Assembly: GCA_001874365.1 (NCBI GenBank)
Contig: MPDF01000001.1
Span: 1 to 64,000 of the forward strand
DNA from: Gammaproteobacteria bacterium MedPE
GTDB lineage: Bacteria > Pseudomonadota > Gammaproteobacteria > Enterobacterales > Psychrobiaceae
Length of the DNA: 64,000 bases
Reading direction: 5' to 3'
Numbering within the stretch: the first letter of the stretch is position 1; every line of letters begins with the position of its first letter. The notes under the pieces were generated by a model that did no database searches, was not told the origin of the DNA, and saw only the letters and a list, made by a program, of their open reading frames with translations. Both the position numbers and the translations under genes were made by a program. Shown piece after piece: positions 25,887 through 44,492 of the stretch.

Positions 25887-25905
25887 AAAAAGGGCGCTAA
25901 ATGCG
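25887..25905 (+). terminator. Left half of a terminator split by IS4 (includes 11-bp target duplication)
   Basis: AAAAAGGG is followed by the target duplication CGCTAAATGCG (25895-25905). The matching half, the second CGCTAAATGCG followed by CCCTTTTT, lies at 27340-27358 beyond the element. Joined without the IS, they form the stem AAAAAGGGCGC / GCGCCCTTTTT with loop TAAAT, a bidirectional terminator between the TonB-like gene and the convergent porin gene. Confidence 0.88.
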
Positions 25906-25906
25906 T

Positions 25907-25940
25907 AATGTCAGTCAGTTAAGCTGACTGGCATTTTTGT
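25907..25940 (+). terminator. Hairpin at the IS4 left end acting as plus-strand terminator
   Basis: AATGTCAGTCAG, a TTAAG loop and CTGACTGGCATT (11 of 12 pairs plus one wobble) are followed by TTTGTTTTT. It includes the terminal repeat and the last codons of the transposase. Read in the plus direction it would stop transcription arriving from the TonB-like gene. Confidence 0.7.
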
Positions 25941-27249
25941 TTTTATTGTGAGGGTACTTTGAAGGTTTGGGCTTCACCCATCTTCGATAGTTCCTGTCTG
26001 AGCACCTGTCAGGCAATTTAAAGTAGCGCATTTGTTCAAGTAAGAATTCGTAATGTTTAGGTATGTTTCCTGGAGAAGTTAATGGGAGCGTCGCAAAAAA
26101 TTGCGTGACGGCCATAGAACAGCTTGCAAAGCTTAATTGGCTGGGCAATACACTATCGAGCCGAGCGGCCGCTGCCGTCATGGCCTGTCTGATGAGATTA
26201 TACGCTAATAAAATTCCCCATAACTCTTGCTCTATCATATCTGGGCGCTTGCTTCTTAATGTATATTTACTATCCAGCAGCGTTTGTTTCATCTCTCTAA
26301 AACCGAGTTCTATTTCCCATCGATAACAATACAGCTCTACCATTTCTTCACTTGGAAAGCGCATTGGGTCGACCATCGACGTCAACATCCTATACTCTTT
26401 CCCTTTGATGACTTTGCTCACTAACCTCGCTTCTAGTGTTTTTGGTAACTCAGCAAATTTCTTACGTGATTGCGGTGTTGTCTTCAGTCGGATTTTAAAA
26501 TCATGCTTACTAATACGTTGAATTATTTCATACTGTAGGTCTTTTCTAGCAGGTATCATCCAGTGCCTATGTTCACCTGCTTGATGCCAGCGATTTAATA
26601 GCCCTAACGAGTAGTATCCTTTATCAAATATCGTTAAAGAGCTGTCAGGCGTTCGCTCAATTAGTTGCTCTGCTAGCATCATTTCGTTAGTTCGGTAATC
26701 TGAAAAGGCGCTATTGATTAATTGATGGCTAGTCACTTCCATGTGATAAACCATACGGATTTTAGGGAAGATATTGTCACTATGACCGTTGTTTTGAGCT
26801 TTAAATGTATCGTGATTCTCTGGTGTATCAGCTGTTCGCCATACAACCCCATCAACAGCCAATAGGTTTAAGCCAGCCCACGTTTCAAACTTATTGGCTT
26901 GATAGCTTTGCGTAGCCATCGCCAAGAATACTTGCTTCACGGCCTCTGAGCCCAGGCGTTGTCTGGCCTGAACTAATGCACTTGGTGCCACTAATGGCTT
27001 TTTCCCAGGCAACATAATATCCATTTGGGTAGCGATATCCCATACTGAGCGCTGTCTAAATAAGCTCATCCCTACAATAGACCAAAGAACAGTTTCTAAG
27101 GGTAATCGGCGCTTTCGGATAGTTGCAACTCCTGCCTGTTGAAAACCTTGTTCGATTAACTGTGGGGAGAGTATTTCAGCAAACTTCTCAAATGAATGGA
27201 ATGTATTACAAGCGGCGAGTGTGGTTGTAAGCTCTGATTCTAGGCGCAT
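25915..27249 (-). CDS. IS4-family transposase (DDE)
   Basis: A 444-residue transposase close to that of E. coli IS4 (442). The DDE residues are the Asp in [10 protein letters not shown], the Asp in [17 protein letters not shown] and the Glu in [14 protein letters not shown]. The last also shows the IS4 signature Y-x2-R-x3-E-x6-K exactly ([15 protein letters not shown]). The start is placed at ATG 27249 (MRLESEL) because this aligns with the second copy's start and with IS4 itself; in-frame TTG 27267 and ATG 27261 lie inside a hairpin. The stop codon is within the left terminal repeat. The gene looks intact and probably active. It reads toward the TonB-like gene. Confidence 0.93.
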
Positions 27250-27250
27250 A

Positions 27251-27287
27251 AAAAAATCCATAACCAAATAAATGATTATGGATTTTT
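27251..27287 (-). terminator. Hairpin plus T-run directly before the IS4 transposase start codon
   Basis: On the minus strand, AAAAATCCATAA, a 12-nt loop and TTATGGATTTTT form a perfect 12-bp stem that ends in a run of seven T and then the ATG at 27249. The presumed ribosome site (GGA) is inside the stem. Transcripts entering from the porin side should terminate or have the start region masked. Confidence 0.65.
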
Positions 27288-27295
27288 GTACGATC

Positions 27296-27321
27296 CAATC
27301 GATCGGTCAACCGATCGATTG
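27296..27321. repeat. Subterminal palindrome of the intact IS4 copy
   Basis: CAATCGATCGGT and ACCGATCGATTG form a perfect 12-bp inverted repeat with spacer CA, next to the right terminal repeat. It contains two GATC sites. A weaker version (GATCGGT-CA-ACTGATC) occurs at the same place in the second copy (43424-43439). It may bind transposase or carry the transposase promoter. Confidence 0.55.
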
Positions 27322-27339
27322 CTTAACTGATCGGCATTA

Positions 27340-27358
27340 CGCTAAATGCGCCCTTTTT
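27340..27358 (-). terminator. Right half of the terminator split by IS4 (second 11-bp duplication)
   Basis: The second CGCTAAATGCG (27340-27350) continues as CCCTTTTT. On the minus strand it lies 28 bp beyond the porin stop codon, where the porin terminator would have been. The complementary half is at 25887-25905. Confidence 0.88.
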
Positions 27359-39473: not shown

Positions 39474-39674
39474 GATGAACCTTTTATCAGGTTGTGAGTC
39501 TTTACTAGGTCAATGATGTAATCGCGGTTTCATGAGCGTTTACAAATAAAAACATAAGTTTAATTGCATCAAGGCTCATTCAAGTGAATAATGCCTTGCA
39601 TTAAATCGAGAAGTTAGCATACGACTACAGCAAATTATTGAATGTTAGGCGTTTTGCAGGTAACAGGAACAATA

Positions 39675-41552
39675 ATGAACAAAAAGTTACAACCTACAGT
39701 ACTCGCCATCGCACTCGCTGCTAGTTTTGGCGCCCAAGCTGCCACTGTTTACAAAATTGAAAATATTGATGAATTTTATAAAGTTAATGGCACTATTAAC
39801 AACAGTCGTAGTGGTTTTGGTGCGACACTAAATAACAGCGGTGATGTGCTTGGTGGTGCTTCTGGTACTTTCGCACCTTTGCTAAGTGAAGATGACCAAA
39901 ATACCATTAATAATAACCGTGTTGATGTGTCCTTAACGCAATTAGCAGCTAATGCGTCTAATAGCAGTATTAATCCGACTCGTGTTGTTAAGTTAATTCC
40001 ACAGTCTAACAACTCTGTTTTCGAGTTTGATACCAATAATTTACCTGAATTTATCAAGATATTTGATGAAACTATTACGCGAGACGGTCGAGATGTTTCG
40101 ACTATAGATTCGTTCGCTTTTGATGTGTCAGATACTGGCGTTATTGTGGGAACAACAAGTTCTGCTGCTTATGCTGTTGACGATCCAGATCAGTCAGAAG
40201 GTAACAGCGATAAAGACGATCCATTCTACGTTTATGACTATTCACAACGTGCAATGATTATTGATAACGGCGTGATAAAGGTATTTACTCCTGAGTTTTC
40301 TACTTATGGTGGCCAGAGCGGAATTACGGCAATTAATGACAATGGATTAGTTGTCGGTTATGCCAGTGTTGGTCTTGAAAATGACGCAAGAACGCGTATT
40401 GACACTGTCTGTCTAGATTCCTATAAAGATACCGTTCCGTTACAAGTATGTGCTGCTGGTTTTAGCGATGGTGGTCGTCGAAATACTGCAGTTCAGTATT
40501 ATTTACACGCCTATAGCTGGGAATATAGTAATGGTGAACTGACAAATCCGATAGACTTGGGGATTTTAACATCACCTATTAATGACAACGATGCTGACTC
40601 ATACAACAGCATCGCTCTTGATGTAAATAATAATGGTATTGCAGTAGGACGTAGTAAAACGTTTAGAGATCAGAAGAAAGAATTTCGCTATCGATTAGAC
40701 GTTGCTTCGGTATTTAAAGAAGGAACTGTTATTGATTTAATGGATCATTCTCAAAAGAATTGGCGTAATTCAAGTGCTAATGCTATCAATGATAATAACT
40801 TTGTCGTCGGGTTTGTGGAAAAAAGCATTGGTGGATTTTACCGAAAGAAATTCTTTATCTATGACGCAACAAGTGAAGATACTGCGTTAACTTTTCCAAA
40901 TGACTTTTCAAATAATGAATCAGATTTTGCATCCAATGCAAAGAGTATTAATGACAAGAGCCAAGTGGTAGGCTCTATCGAAATCGATAGTCAGAAAGTA
41001 GATAATGGGCGTCGAACTCACGGTTTTCTTTATGAACACAGTGATCAATCATTCAATGATATTAATGACTTGCTAACTTGTGAATCGAAAGGATACGTCA
41101 AAACGGGTAATGATTGGAAGAAATACCAGGTTGAAGCAACAGGCGGTAATGAGCAAAAGATTAGCTATGATGCTGATATAACTGTTGTAGATGCGTCTAA
41201 AATTGCAGAAGATGGGACAATCATTGCGACAGCATTAGTAACATTACCTCGTGTTAAAACCCGTTGGGTAGATGATAAAGGCAATGAAGTGACATCAACT
41301 ACTGAAGGTGCTGTTGAAGAATTAGTAATTGACGCAAACGGCGAACCTGTGTTCGATACAACTGCTAGTGGCGAACCGATTACAGAACAAATTCCGCGTG
41401 CGGTTATTCTAAAACCAACCGAGGGCGAAGCCTGTCAAGTTGTGGAAGAAGATTCGTTAGATTATAAGCAAGAGCGCCAAGGTGCAGGTTTTGGCTTAAG
41501 TGCTTTGTTAATTGCAACTGCTGGATTATTCTTACGTCGTTTTCGTCGATAA
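39675..41552 (+). CDS. DUF3466 exported protein with HAF-like repeats and a C-terminal sorting-type tail
   Basis: A 625-residue protein of the DUF3466 family. A signal peptide (MNKKLQPTVLAIALAASFGA, cleavage after QAA) is followed by about six HAF-type repeats of the pattern x-I/V-N-D/N-x-G-x-V-V-G: TLNNSGDVLGG, DVSDTGVIVGT, AINDNGLVVGY, DVNNNGIAVGR, AINDNNFVVGF and SINDKSQVVGS. The C-terminus has a Gly/Ala-rich stretch, a hydrophobic helix and a basic end (GAGFGLSALLIATAGLFLRR), like GlyGly-CTERM/rhombosortase signals. The ATG at 39675 with AGGA upstream is chosen. It lies between uup and rmf, as in Vibrio and Shewanella. Function unknown; probably a surface-attached propeller. Confidence 0.85.
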   Translation: MNKKLQPTVLAIALAASFGAQAATVYKIENIDEFYKVNGTINNSRSGFGATLNNSGDVLGGASGTFAPLLSEDDQNTINNNRVDVSLTQLAANASNSSINPTRVVKLIPQSNNSVFEFDTNNLPEFIKIFDETITRDGRDVSTIDSFAFDVSDTGVIVGTTSSAAYAVDDPDQSEGNSDKDDPFYVYDYSQRAMIIDNGVIKVFTPEFSTYGGQSGITAINDNGLVVGYASVGLENDARTRIDTVCLDSYKDTVPLQVCAAGFSDGGRRNTAVQYYLHAYSWEYSNGELTNPIDLGILTSPINDNDADSYNSIALDVNNNGIAVGRSKTFRDQKKEFRYRLDVASVFKEGTVIDLMDHSQKNWRNSSANAINDNNFVVGFVEKSIGGFYRKKFFIYDATSEDTALTFPNDFSNNESDFASNAKSINDKSQVVGSIEIDSQKVDNGRRTHGFLYEHSDQSFNDINDLLTCESKGYVKTGNDWKKYQVEATGGNEQKISYDADITVVDASKIAEDGTIIATALVTLPRVKTRWVDDKGNEVTSTTEGAVEELVIDANGEPVFDTTASGEPITEQIPRAVILKPTEGEACQVVEEDSLDYKQERQGAGFGLSALLIATAGLFLRRFRR

Positions 41553-41824: not shown

Positions 41825-42001
41825 ATGAATAGACAGAAACGGAACCGCAAAGAACGCGCTTTTTCAAAGGGTTATCAAGCAGGATTACACCAATTAAGTA
41901 GAGACAATTGTCCTTATCAAAACATCGAACAAAAAGAACAATGGTTAGGAGGCTGGCGTGAAGCATGTGAGCGAAGTGCTGAAGGATTTTATAATCGTTA
42001 A
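41825..42001 (+). CDS. rmf: Ribosome modulation factor
   Basis: A 58-residue basic protein that dimerises 70S ribosomes to inactive 100S particles in stationary phase. It shows the Rmf signature: MNRQKRNRKERAFSKGYQAG at the start, CPYQ in the middle and QWLGGWREA near the end, matching E. coli Rmf nearly throughout. GAGGAAAAG precedes the ATG at 41825; a GTG at 41810 in frame overlaps that site and is rejected. The leader of about 200 bp upstream is AT-rich. Its terminator downstream was split by the second IS4 copy. Confidence 0.95.
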   Translation: MNRQKRNRKERAFSKGYQAGLHQLSRDNCPYQNIEQKEQWLGGWREACERSAEGFYNR

Positions 42002-42022: not shown

Positions 42023-42040
42023 AAAAAAGCACCTTAGGGT
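42023..42040 (+). terminator. Left half of the rmf/fghA terminator split by the second IS4 (with 10-bp duplication)
   Basis: AAAAAAGC is followed by the duplication ACCTTAGGGT (42031-42040). The other half, ATCTTAGTGT followed by GCTTTTTT, lies at 43463-43480. Using the left copy, the restored site has stem AAAAAAGCACC / GGTGCTTTTTT with loop TTAG. It lies 21 bp past the rmf stop. Confidence 0.8.
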
Positions 42041-42041
42041 C

Positions 42042-42078
42042 AATGCTAGTCAGTTAAGCTGACTGGCATTTCTTTTTT
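42042..42078 (+). terminator. Hairpin at the left end of the second IS4
   Basis: AATGCTAGTCAG, a TTAAG loop and CTGACTGGCATT pair at 11 of 12 positions and are followed by TCTTTTTTT. It is the same arrangement as at 25907 in the first element and would stop transcription arriving from rmf. Confidence 0.7.
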
Positions 42079-43373
42079 TATGGGGATATTTACTCGGTTT
42101 CGATTTCACACACCGCGAATATTTCCTATCCTCTTGCCTTATCGGCAACTTAAATAAGCACAATGTTTCTAGTAGGTGATTCCAGTGGGTTGGAATATTT
42201 CCTGGACTCATTATTGATACTGACGAAAAGTATTGAATGACTGCCATAGAGTAACTCGAAAAACTCAGTTGATTAGGCCATATTCCATCAACCTTAGATG
42301 CTGCTATAGTCATCATGCGTCGAATTAGATTGTACGCTAACAGTACGCCCCATAACTCTTGTTTTACCATATCAGGTCGCTTGCTTCTTAAGTGATAGGC
42401 GCTATTGAGCATCGTTTGCTTCATTTCTCGATAGCCCAGTTCAATTTCCCATCGATGGCAATATAAATCGACAATCTCATTGCTAGGAAAGCGTAATCGC
42501 TCTGTCATTGACGTTAAAATTCGATAACGCTTTCCTTTGATTGTTTTACTGATAAGTCGTGCCTCAATAATCTCAGGTACATCTGGGAAGTTCTTCTGGG
42601 CGTGCTTAGTTGCCTTTAATTTGATCGTTTTTACCAACACTTGAGATAACTTCATATTGTAAGTCTGGGCGTGCAGGAATAAGCCAATGACGTTGAGAGC
42701 CTGTTTGATGCCAACGATTTAATAGACCGAGTGAATAATAGCCTTTATCAAACATGGTAAGTGAATTATCTGGCGTACGTTCAATCAATTTCTGGGCTAG
42801 TTTCATCTCGTTAGTCTTGTAGTGGTCGACCTCACTACTAATTAACTGATGACTTGTTAATTCCATATGGCAAACCATACGCAGCTGTGGAAATCCCGTT
42901 TCACCATGTTGGTTACTTCCAGAAGAAAACGCTTCTCTATTGCTTGGCGAATCAGCTGCTCGCCAAACGACACCATCGACTGCTAATAAATTTAGACCAC
43001 TCCATGTTTCAAAGTTTTGTTGCTCATACATGGCTTTAGCAGAGACGTTAAAGACTTGTTTAATTGACTCTTCGCTGAGTCGTTGTCTTGCCTGAACTAT
43101 CGCACTAGGGGCGACAAGTTGGTTTTTACCTGGGAGCATAATATCGAGTTTAGTTGCAATATTCCAAACAGAATCTTTACGAAACATCGCCATGCCAATC
43201 ACCGACCACAATACCGCTTCAAGAGGGAGTCTGCGTTTGCGGACAGTTGTAATCCCTGCCTGCTTAAAGCCTTGTTGTATGATGTCTTCATCAAGAATTT
43301 CAGATAGTTTTTCGAAAGTATGATAGCGAGTACTTTCGAGAAGTGTATTTTGTAAGGCTTGTTCTATGTTCAC
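42050..43373 (-). pseudogene. IS4-family transposase broken by a frameshift
   Basis: Two overlapping frames cover one IS4-type transposase: residues up to [12 protein letters not shown] (43373 down to about 42620) and a second frame from [15 protein letters not shown] to the end (down to 42050). Aligned with the intact copy ([19 protein letters not shown]), about three residues are missing at the junction, consistent with a small deletion of 8 bp near 42620. DDE residues are in both parts ([32 protein letters not shown]). Start GTG at 43373 ([10 protein letters not shown]) aligns with E. coli IS4. Programmed frameshifting is unlikely because residues are lost and this IS group does not use it. 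Confidence 0.9.
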
Positions 43374-43408
43374 AAAAAAATCCGCAGTTAGAATCTAACT
43401 ACGGATTT
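43374..43408 (-). terminator. Hairpin plus T-run directly before the second transposase start codon
   Basis: On the minus strand, AAATCCGTAGTTAG, an ATT loop and CTAACTGCGGATTT pair at 13 of 14 positions (plus one wobble), followed by seven T and the GTG start. The arm sequence differs from the first copy while the structure is kept. Confidence 0.7.
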
Positions 43409-43462
43409 TCAAATGATCTTTAGGATCGGTCAACTGATCTATGCCTTAACTGATCAGCATTG

Positions 43463-43480
43463 ATCTTAGTGTGCTTTTTT
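43463..43480 (-). terminator. Right half of the rmf/fghA terminator (second duplication copy)
   Basis: ATCTTAGTGT (43463-43472) continues as GCTTTTTT. It lies 21 bp beyond the fghA stop codon on the minus strand, where that gene's terminator would be expected. Confidence 0.8.
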
Positions 43481-43500: not shown

Positions 43501-44349
43501 TTAGCTATTTAAGTATTTAGCATGGAAATCGATGTGAGATTCTATAAAGCTCGCAATGAAGAAGTAGCTGTGATTGTAACCATCGCGCATATTAATGGTT
43601 GCTTCATAGTTAGCGTCGCCAGCTGCTGTAATTAAATTGTCCGTTAACAATTCCTCTTCAAGGAAATTATCCTCACTGCCTTGATCGACTAACATCGGTA
43701 ATTGATTGTTACCTTGCTTGATCAAGTGGCACGTGTCGTATGGTAGCCATGCATTAAGGTGATCGCCTAAATAATTAAAGAACGCTTTTTGGCCCCAAGG
43801 TGTTTCAATTGGATTAACAATTGGGCTAAATGCCGACACACTTTGATAAGCTGTTGAATTACGTAAAGCAATAACTAACGCGCCATGGCCTCCCATTGAA
43901 TGGCCAAAAATTGATTTTTTATCGGTGACCGGTAAACTTTCTTCAATTAACGCTGGCAGCTCTGAGACGACATAGTCATACATATTAAAATGTGTTTTCC
44001 ACGGCTTCTGAGTGGCGTTCACATAAAAACCAGCACCTTGGCCAAAGGCGTAATCATCTTCTAAATCATCAGGTACGTCCTCACCTCGTGGGCTAGTATC
44101 AGGCATAACGAGTGCGATGCCGTGCTTTGCAGCCCATTGTTGTGCGCCTGCTTTCACCGAAAAGTTTTCATCTGTACAGGTAAGGCCCGATAAAAAATAC
44201 AGAACAGGAACGGGGGTATCTTTACTCGCTTGCGGCGGTAAATAAACGGAAAACGTCATCATACAATGATTAACAGCAGATTGATGCTGATATTGATTAT
44301 GAGAGCCTTCAAAGAGTTTTTGAGTGGATAATAAATTTAATGTCGACAT
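43501..44349 (-). CDS. fghA: S-formylglutathione hydrolase
   Basis: A 282-residue alpha/beta-hydrolase of the esterase D family, which cleaves S-formylglutathione to formate and glutathione in formaldehyde detoxification. The nucleophile is in FGHSMGGHGAL (Ser about 151). The acid is in DQGSEDNFL and the His in GYNHSYFFIA. Other landmarks are YFLSGLTCTDENF and DTSPRGEDVPDD. The ATG at 44349 with GAGAT upstream begins MSTLNLLSTQKLFEG, the family start; an in-frame upstream extension to 44403 is rejected. The usual partner, glutathione-dependent formaldehyde dehydrogenase, is not in this window. It converges on rmf across the second IS4. Confidence 0.93.
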   Translation of the reverse strand: MSTLNLLSTQKLFEGSHNQYQHQSAVNHCMMTFSVYLPPQASKDTPVPVLYFLSGLTCTDENFSVKAGAQQWAAKHGIALVMPDTSPRGEDVPDDLEDDYAFGQGAGFYVNATQKPWKTHFNMYDYVVSELPALIEESLPVTDKKSIFGHSMGGHGALVIALRNSTAYQSVSAFSPIVNPIETPWGQKAFFNYLGDHLNAWLPYDTCHLIKQGNNQLPMLVDQGSEDNFLEEELLTDNLITAAGDANYEATINMRDGYNHSYFFIASFIESHIDFHAKYLNS

Positions 44350-44492
44350 AACGATCTCTATGCAGTCTGATTTGCTCTGCATAATAGCAAAGAATAATGT
44401 CAAAGCGGCAGATAAATTAGTTTTTTACGGCACTTTGCCCTTGTTGCTGATTTTGATAGAATCTATTTTATTTCTTATCAAGTTACATCACT

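Follow-up and report, generated by a model that had tools for sequence, protein, structure and literature searches.

Intrinsic Terminators as Targets of IS4-Subgroup Insertion Sequences: Evidence for Insertion on the Dyad Axis

Results

The window, that is, the whole stretch of 64,000 nucleotides analyzed here, contains two insertion sequences, each lodged within what appears to have been an intrinsic terminator (table 1). The decayed copy, element 2, separates rmf from fghA, two genes whose strands and protein families bear out the earlier note's statement that they converge. The terminal inverted repeats of this element are CAATGCTAGTCAGTTAAG and CAATGCTGATCAGTTAAG. When its flanks are joined they yield AAAAAAGCACC-TTAG-GGTGCTTTTTT, with a folding energy of -19.2 kcal/mol (z -6.6); the restored terminator that the earlier note had described, with eight bases left on either side of the duplication, is thereby confirmed to the base. 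In the relative closest in fghA (genome G008, 92% amino acid identity), an unbroken terminator, AAAAAAGCACCCAAGGGTGCTTTTTTACTTTCCGCT, lies between rmf and fghA. Element 2 also has hairpins of its own at both ends (that of the 5' end, folded over 43365-43415, reaches -21.7 kcal/mol, z -6.5); judged from their sequence, the one at the 3' end would terminate the transcripts of rmf and the one at the 5' end those of fghA. Upstream of rmf, positions 39642-41552 (+) encode a 636-aa exported-looking protein whose C-terminal hydrophobic segment ends in LFLRRFRR, like a sorting signal.

Element 1 splits the terminator AAAAAGGGCGC-TAAAT-GCGCCCTTTTT and is flanked by an exact 11-bp duplication (11/11). 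At 66% DNA identity the two elements have indeed diverged from one another, as had been proposed, and it is fair to call element 2 the older because its transposase has been frameshifted into two open reading frames. A further decayed IS4-group copy (31% amino acid identity) is found on another contig of the host genome (C122, locus L137), and it too lies within a hairpin that has the copy's 11-bp duplication at its centre.

Both elements have the characters of the IS4 family and of its IS4 subgroup. A DDE transposase with a Y(2)R(3)E(6)K motif is encoded: D139, D215, E320 and YREK are present in element 1 and YCHRWEIELGYREMK in element 2, and both elements exceed the cut-off of NF033592. The transposase is a single open reading frame, intact at 450 aa in element 1 and frameshifted by decay in element 2, and the best match of its structure model (mean pLDDT 80) is Tn5 transposase. 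The elements end in -AATR (TAATG/CAATG), their lengths of 1,422 and 1,434 bp fall within the range of about 1,400-1,650 bp, and their duplications of 10 and 11 bp within that of 10-13 bp; in size, ends, duplications, DDE residues and YREK motif they thus resemble the IS4 subgroup as reviewed by De Palmenaer et al. (2008; PMC2266710). The targets, for their part, have the GC stem-loop and the T-tract at a gene end that characterize intrinsic terminators.

Table 1. Features of the two interrupted terminators and of the elements within them (positions in the window)
Feature	Positions	Strand	Basis or sequence
Element 1, first IS4-subgroup element, 1,434 bp; intact 450-aa transposase at 25915-27267	25906..27339	-	
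Left half of terminator split by element 1	25887..25905	+	AAAAAGGG + duplication CGCTAAATGCG
Right half of terminator split by element 1	27340..27358	+	duplication CGCTAAATGCG + CCCTTTTT
rmf, ribosome modulation factor; owner of split terminator	41825..42001	+	PF04957, E 3.8e-17
Left remnant of split terminator, A-tract + GC	42023..42030	+	AAAAAAGC; sequence; intact in relative G008
Left 10-bp target duplication, hairpin loop at its centre	42031..42040	+	ACCTTAGGGT
Element 2, decayed IS4-subgroup insertion sequence, 1,422 bp	42041..43462	-	terminal repeats, duplication, domains
Putative inward terminator, element 2 3' end, built from terminal repeat	42042..42077	+	AATGCTAGTCAGTTAAGCTGACTGGCATT-TCTTTTT
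Transposase, C-terminal part, YREK motif YCHRWEIELGYREMK	42050..42655	-	PF01609 + motif
Transposase, N-terminal part, frameshifted	42606..43373	-	PF13006 + PF01609
Putative inward terminator, element 2 5' end, overlaps transposase start	43371..43408	-	fold
Right target duplication, 8/10 to left copy	43463..43472	+	ATCTTAGTGT
Right remnant of split terminator, GC + T-tract	43473..43480	+	GCTTTTTT; sequence
fghA, S-formylglutathione hydrolase, convergent with rmf	43501..44403	-	PF00756, E 1.9e-60

Searching with the DNA of the window element recovered its relatives only as fragments, and the intact window transposase was therefore used to search 395 genomes of the host's order; the DNA around the matches was extracted, and named genomes, viral contigs and E. 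coli IS4 copies were added. Element ends were located from terminal repeats and duplications alone, with hairpin information unused, and copies that were decayed or cut by contig borders, whose ends often could not be fixed, lie outside the counts. After removal of repeat sites the survey comprised 153 non-redundant reconstructed targets, among which some unrecognised shared descent is possible; almost all are from Gammaproteobacteria, beyond which phylum-wide searches revealed almost no members. A hairpin site was defined by a score of >=18, on a scale devised for this analysis, and by a dyad <=1 bp from the duplication centre. The same score was applied to the controls, 400 kb of DNA from ten of the surveyed genomes, and the gene arrangement around the sites was taken from naive ORF calls.

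By this definition 128 of the 153 targets (84%), E. coli IS4 included, are hairpin-centred, whereas 0.69% of the intergenic control positions score as well, an enrichment of about 120-fold. The survey that the earlier note had named as its own possible refutation, one in which such centring would be no commoner than expected from intergenic bias, has thus been run and did not refute it. A strong hairpin lies within 15 bp at 131 sites; its offset from the duplication centre is <=2 bp in all 131 and exactly 0 in 96 of them. Hairpin-centred targets make up 82/94 of those from the order survey, 31/34 from named genomes, 2/2 in the window, 7/11 in E. coli and 6/12 in viral contigs. Grouped by transposase identity to the window, the proportions are 27/31 (<40%), 50/62 (40-50%), 25/33 (50-60%) and 26/27 (>60%), and the terminator-centring rule therefore extends over identities of 31-100%.

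The gene context is equally distinctive: among 84 callable hairpin sites the flanking genes are convergent at 64, tandem at 16 and divergent at 4, as against 14.5%, 63% and 22% of control intergenic DNA (excess of convergent pairs, binomial p about 1e-36). Another 16 hairpin sites were called "inside an ORF" by the naive procedure, some of them probably spuriously. Taken together, the features of these hairpins are those of sequences that would behave as terminators. The 25 sites without a qualifying hairpin (about 16%) include several from E. coli and prophage contigs, and about half of those that could be classified lie within ORFs. The targeting rule that the earlier note raised for the IS4 group holds for the part of the IS4 family surveyed here, the IS4 subgroup with a PF13006 N-terminus. 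For IS50-type elements three or four sites could be resolved, with some GC palindromes and no T-tracts. Those of one genome (L408, L415 and L421 in G023), few as they are, lie in GC-rich, partly palindromic targets that lack T-tracts.

Alignment of the targets on the cuts gives, at either side, the consensus AAAA(A)-N3-cut, in which G/C occupies the three N positions. In the 25 non-hairpin sites these half-sites recur more weakly but at the same spacing (A reaches 0.76-0.80 from -7 to -5, and T 0.68-0.80 from +4 to +7), which suggests that the target is recognized at the DNA level. The preference for terminators as such may accordingly be, in part, one for a DNA motif. A pure tract motif is nonetheless insufficient, as hairpins are still in excess at equal motif strength: at 6-15 bits they occur in 31/41 insertion sites versus 19/107 intergenic motif matches, and across motif-matched comparisons in 69-90% of chosen sites versus 12-33% of intergenic ones (CMH p = 1.6e-8). 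Counted around the cuts, 4.5 of 6 symmetric pairs can form base pairs, versus 2.35 with the halves shuffled; in the 25 non-hairpin sites the figure is 2.56/6, no higher than shuffled. The duplication measures 10-13 bp in 152/153 survey sites, and in 107/128 hairpin sites its parity is that of the dyad (p = 4e-15), a pair of observations that fit a symmetric complex placed on the axis of the target. Element orientation showed no bias with respect to tract strength among the survey insertions.

The elements themselves bear inward-facing, terminator-like hairpins with a T-tract. Such a hairpin is present at the 3' end of all 66 distinct elements and at the 5' end of 65 of them, while 11-12% of random stretches score in this way. 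The 5'-end hairpin is located around the transposase start; that of the 3' end reads inward and in most elements is formed by the terminal repeat itself. In the cell both would presumably terminate transcription.

Discussion

The symmetry of the flanks could be attributed to the element itself, the palindrome being nothing but its own long inverted repeats, with no choice of target at all. However, copies of a single element within one genome differ in their flanks, the duplication covers the 10-13 bp that adjoin the element, and the unbroken sites in relatives without the element refute this reading, to which we attach practically no probability. It could also be argued that insertion is largely random and that only the copies in harmless spots, such as the terminators of convergent genes, persist. 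The strong enrichment between convergent genes is what such survivorship predicts, and the elements' own terminators would make such places harmless. But harmlessness leaves a position fixed to the single base pair unexplained, the rest of the intergenic DNA, which ought to be just as safe, is seldom used, the sites within genes share the half-site spacing, and the dyad parity effect makes survivorship very unlikely; on the base-pair centring and the parity of the duplication, we reject it as a highly improbable account.

More serious consideration is due to the view that not DNA but transcription is detected, whether by the transposase or by a host factor, through RNA polymerase that pauses or terminates, a hairpin in the RNA or the supercoiling between convergent genes. 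Both the favoring of convergent gene ends and the over-representation of hairpins beyond motif-matched intergenic sites speak for it, whereas the A-tracts and T-tracts at unchanged spacing in non-hairpin and in-gene sites, the indifference of element orientation to tract strength and the exact dyad symmetry, which fits a DNA-bound dimer, speak for a guide in the DNA; a transcriptional guide seems to us unlikely. Marginally less so, although still doubtful, is the capture by the transposase of an extruded cruciform, the A/T-tracts serving merely to ease extrusion. The complementarity of the symmetric pairs and the duplication's adherence to dyad parity would follow naturally from it, but the sites whose complementarity is at the shuffled level keep their tracts all the same. 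We infer that it is mainly DNA symmetry together with the A/T-tracts, and not transcription, that is recognized.

It is very probable, in our judgment, that the IS4 subgroup selects bidirectional intrinsic terminators, splits them on their dyad axis and replaces them with its own end terminators. In the scheme that we propose, a symmetric transposase complex would be set on the two-fold axis of the chosen terminator, and the cut in each strand would lie 5 to 6.5 bp away from the axis and about 3 bp inside the A- or T-tract, giving a duplication of 10-13 bp that includes the loop and the upper stem. Since the split terminator would be exchanged for the two inward-facing ones at the element's ends, the transcripts of the flanking genes would still stop, and little transcription would enter the transposase gene. 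With a good deal less assurance, we lean slightly toward the more general picture of IS4-subgroup transposases as terminator-seeking integrases, in which a symmetric complex would read A-tract, stem and T-tract, possibly as a cruciform, the dyad would set the duplication, and the inward end terminators would have co-evolved with this swap of terminator for terminator.

Other members of the IS4 family, IS231A, Tn10/IS10 and Tn5/IS50, show a preference for symmetry in targets of about 9-12 bp. The window transposase matches Tn5 in its fold, but the targets of those elements have a short sequence consensus, and none of them is known to prefer terminators. Tn7 at attTn7 lands in the terminator region of glmS; this, however, is a single site, chosen through the binding of TnsD inside glmS. 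Group IIC (bacterial-C) introns find safe landing sites at rho-independent terminators (PMC8919778), but they are retroelements that insert just after a terminator and leave it whole, whereas an IS4 insertion breaks the terminator at its loop and puts a substitute in its place. ISRm22, an IS4-family element of the IS4Sa subgroup, enters an extragenic palindrome, the REP sequence, exactly at its axis of palindromy (Tobes and Pareja 2006; PMC1525189); its target, though, is a single sequence repeated within one genome, and not a set of terminators whose sequences are unrelated. The "spectacular" target-arm specificity of the IS4 subgroup was noted by De Palmenaer et al. (2008; PMC2266710); their text mentions neither terminators nor dyads nor attenuators and leaves the variable duplication length unexplained. 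A terminator rule for the subgroup was not found stated in the literature searched, in which subscription papers and ISfinder/TnPedia were thinly covered and from which priority is uncertain.

We regard the rule as a well-supported new targeting rule for a known and widespread group of elements. One simple statement covers both the arm specificity and the variable duplication length, that of the classic E. coli IS4 included; it accounts for the ability of a promiscuous element to spread at low cost and with little harm to its host, and it predicts where new copies will land. It further points to a transposase with an inherent preference for safe harbours, and on this system one could test directly what guides a DDE transposase: DNA symmetry, cruciforms or transcription.

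In E. coli, IS4 splits the pdxK-crr and bamD-raiA terminators, both unbroken in K-12, and it is also found in hairpins by glgP, fumB (with the dyad 1.5 bp off) and gnsA/cspG; it departs from the pattern at yicI, at a paa gene and at the insG site of K-12. A description from 1984 reportedly places an IS4 copy in the attenuator of pheST. The adhE-tdk terminator holds IS4 in strain S19-651 and, in the opposite orientation and with a different duplication, in S1-IND-02-A. K-12 cannot serve as the empty allele here, for it carries at this place the remnant ISZ', which has only its end repeats in common with IS4 and an unrelated interior. The opposite orientations and the unrelated interior of ISZ' indicate that this one terminator was struck independently at least two times, and probably three. 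For this adhE-tdk region (L250, L254, L256), 1,125 E. coli genomes align with >=80% of a query made up of IS4 and its flanks. At the bamD-raiA terminator (L242, L246, L247), IS4 has duplications of 13 and 14 bp, and the strains differ in one base of the loop.
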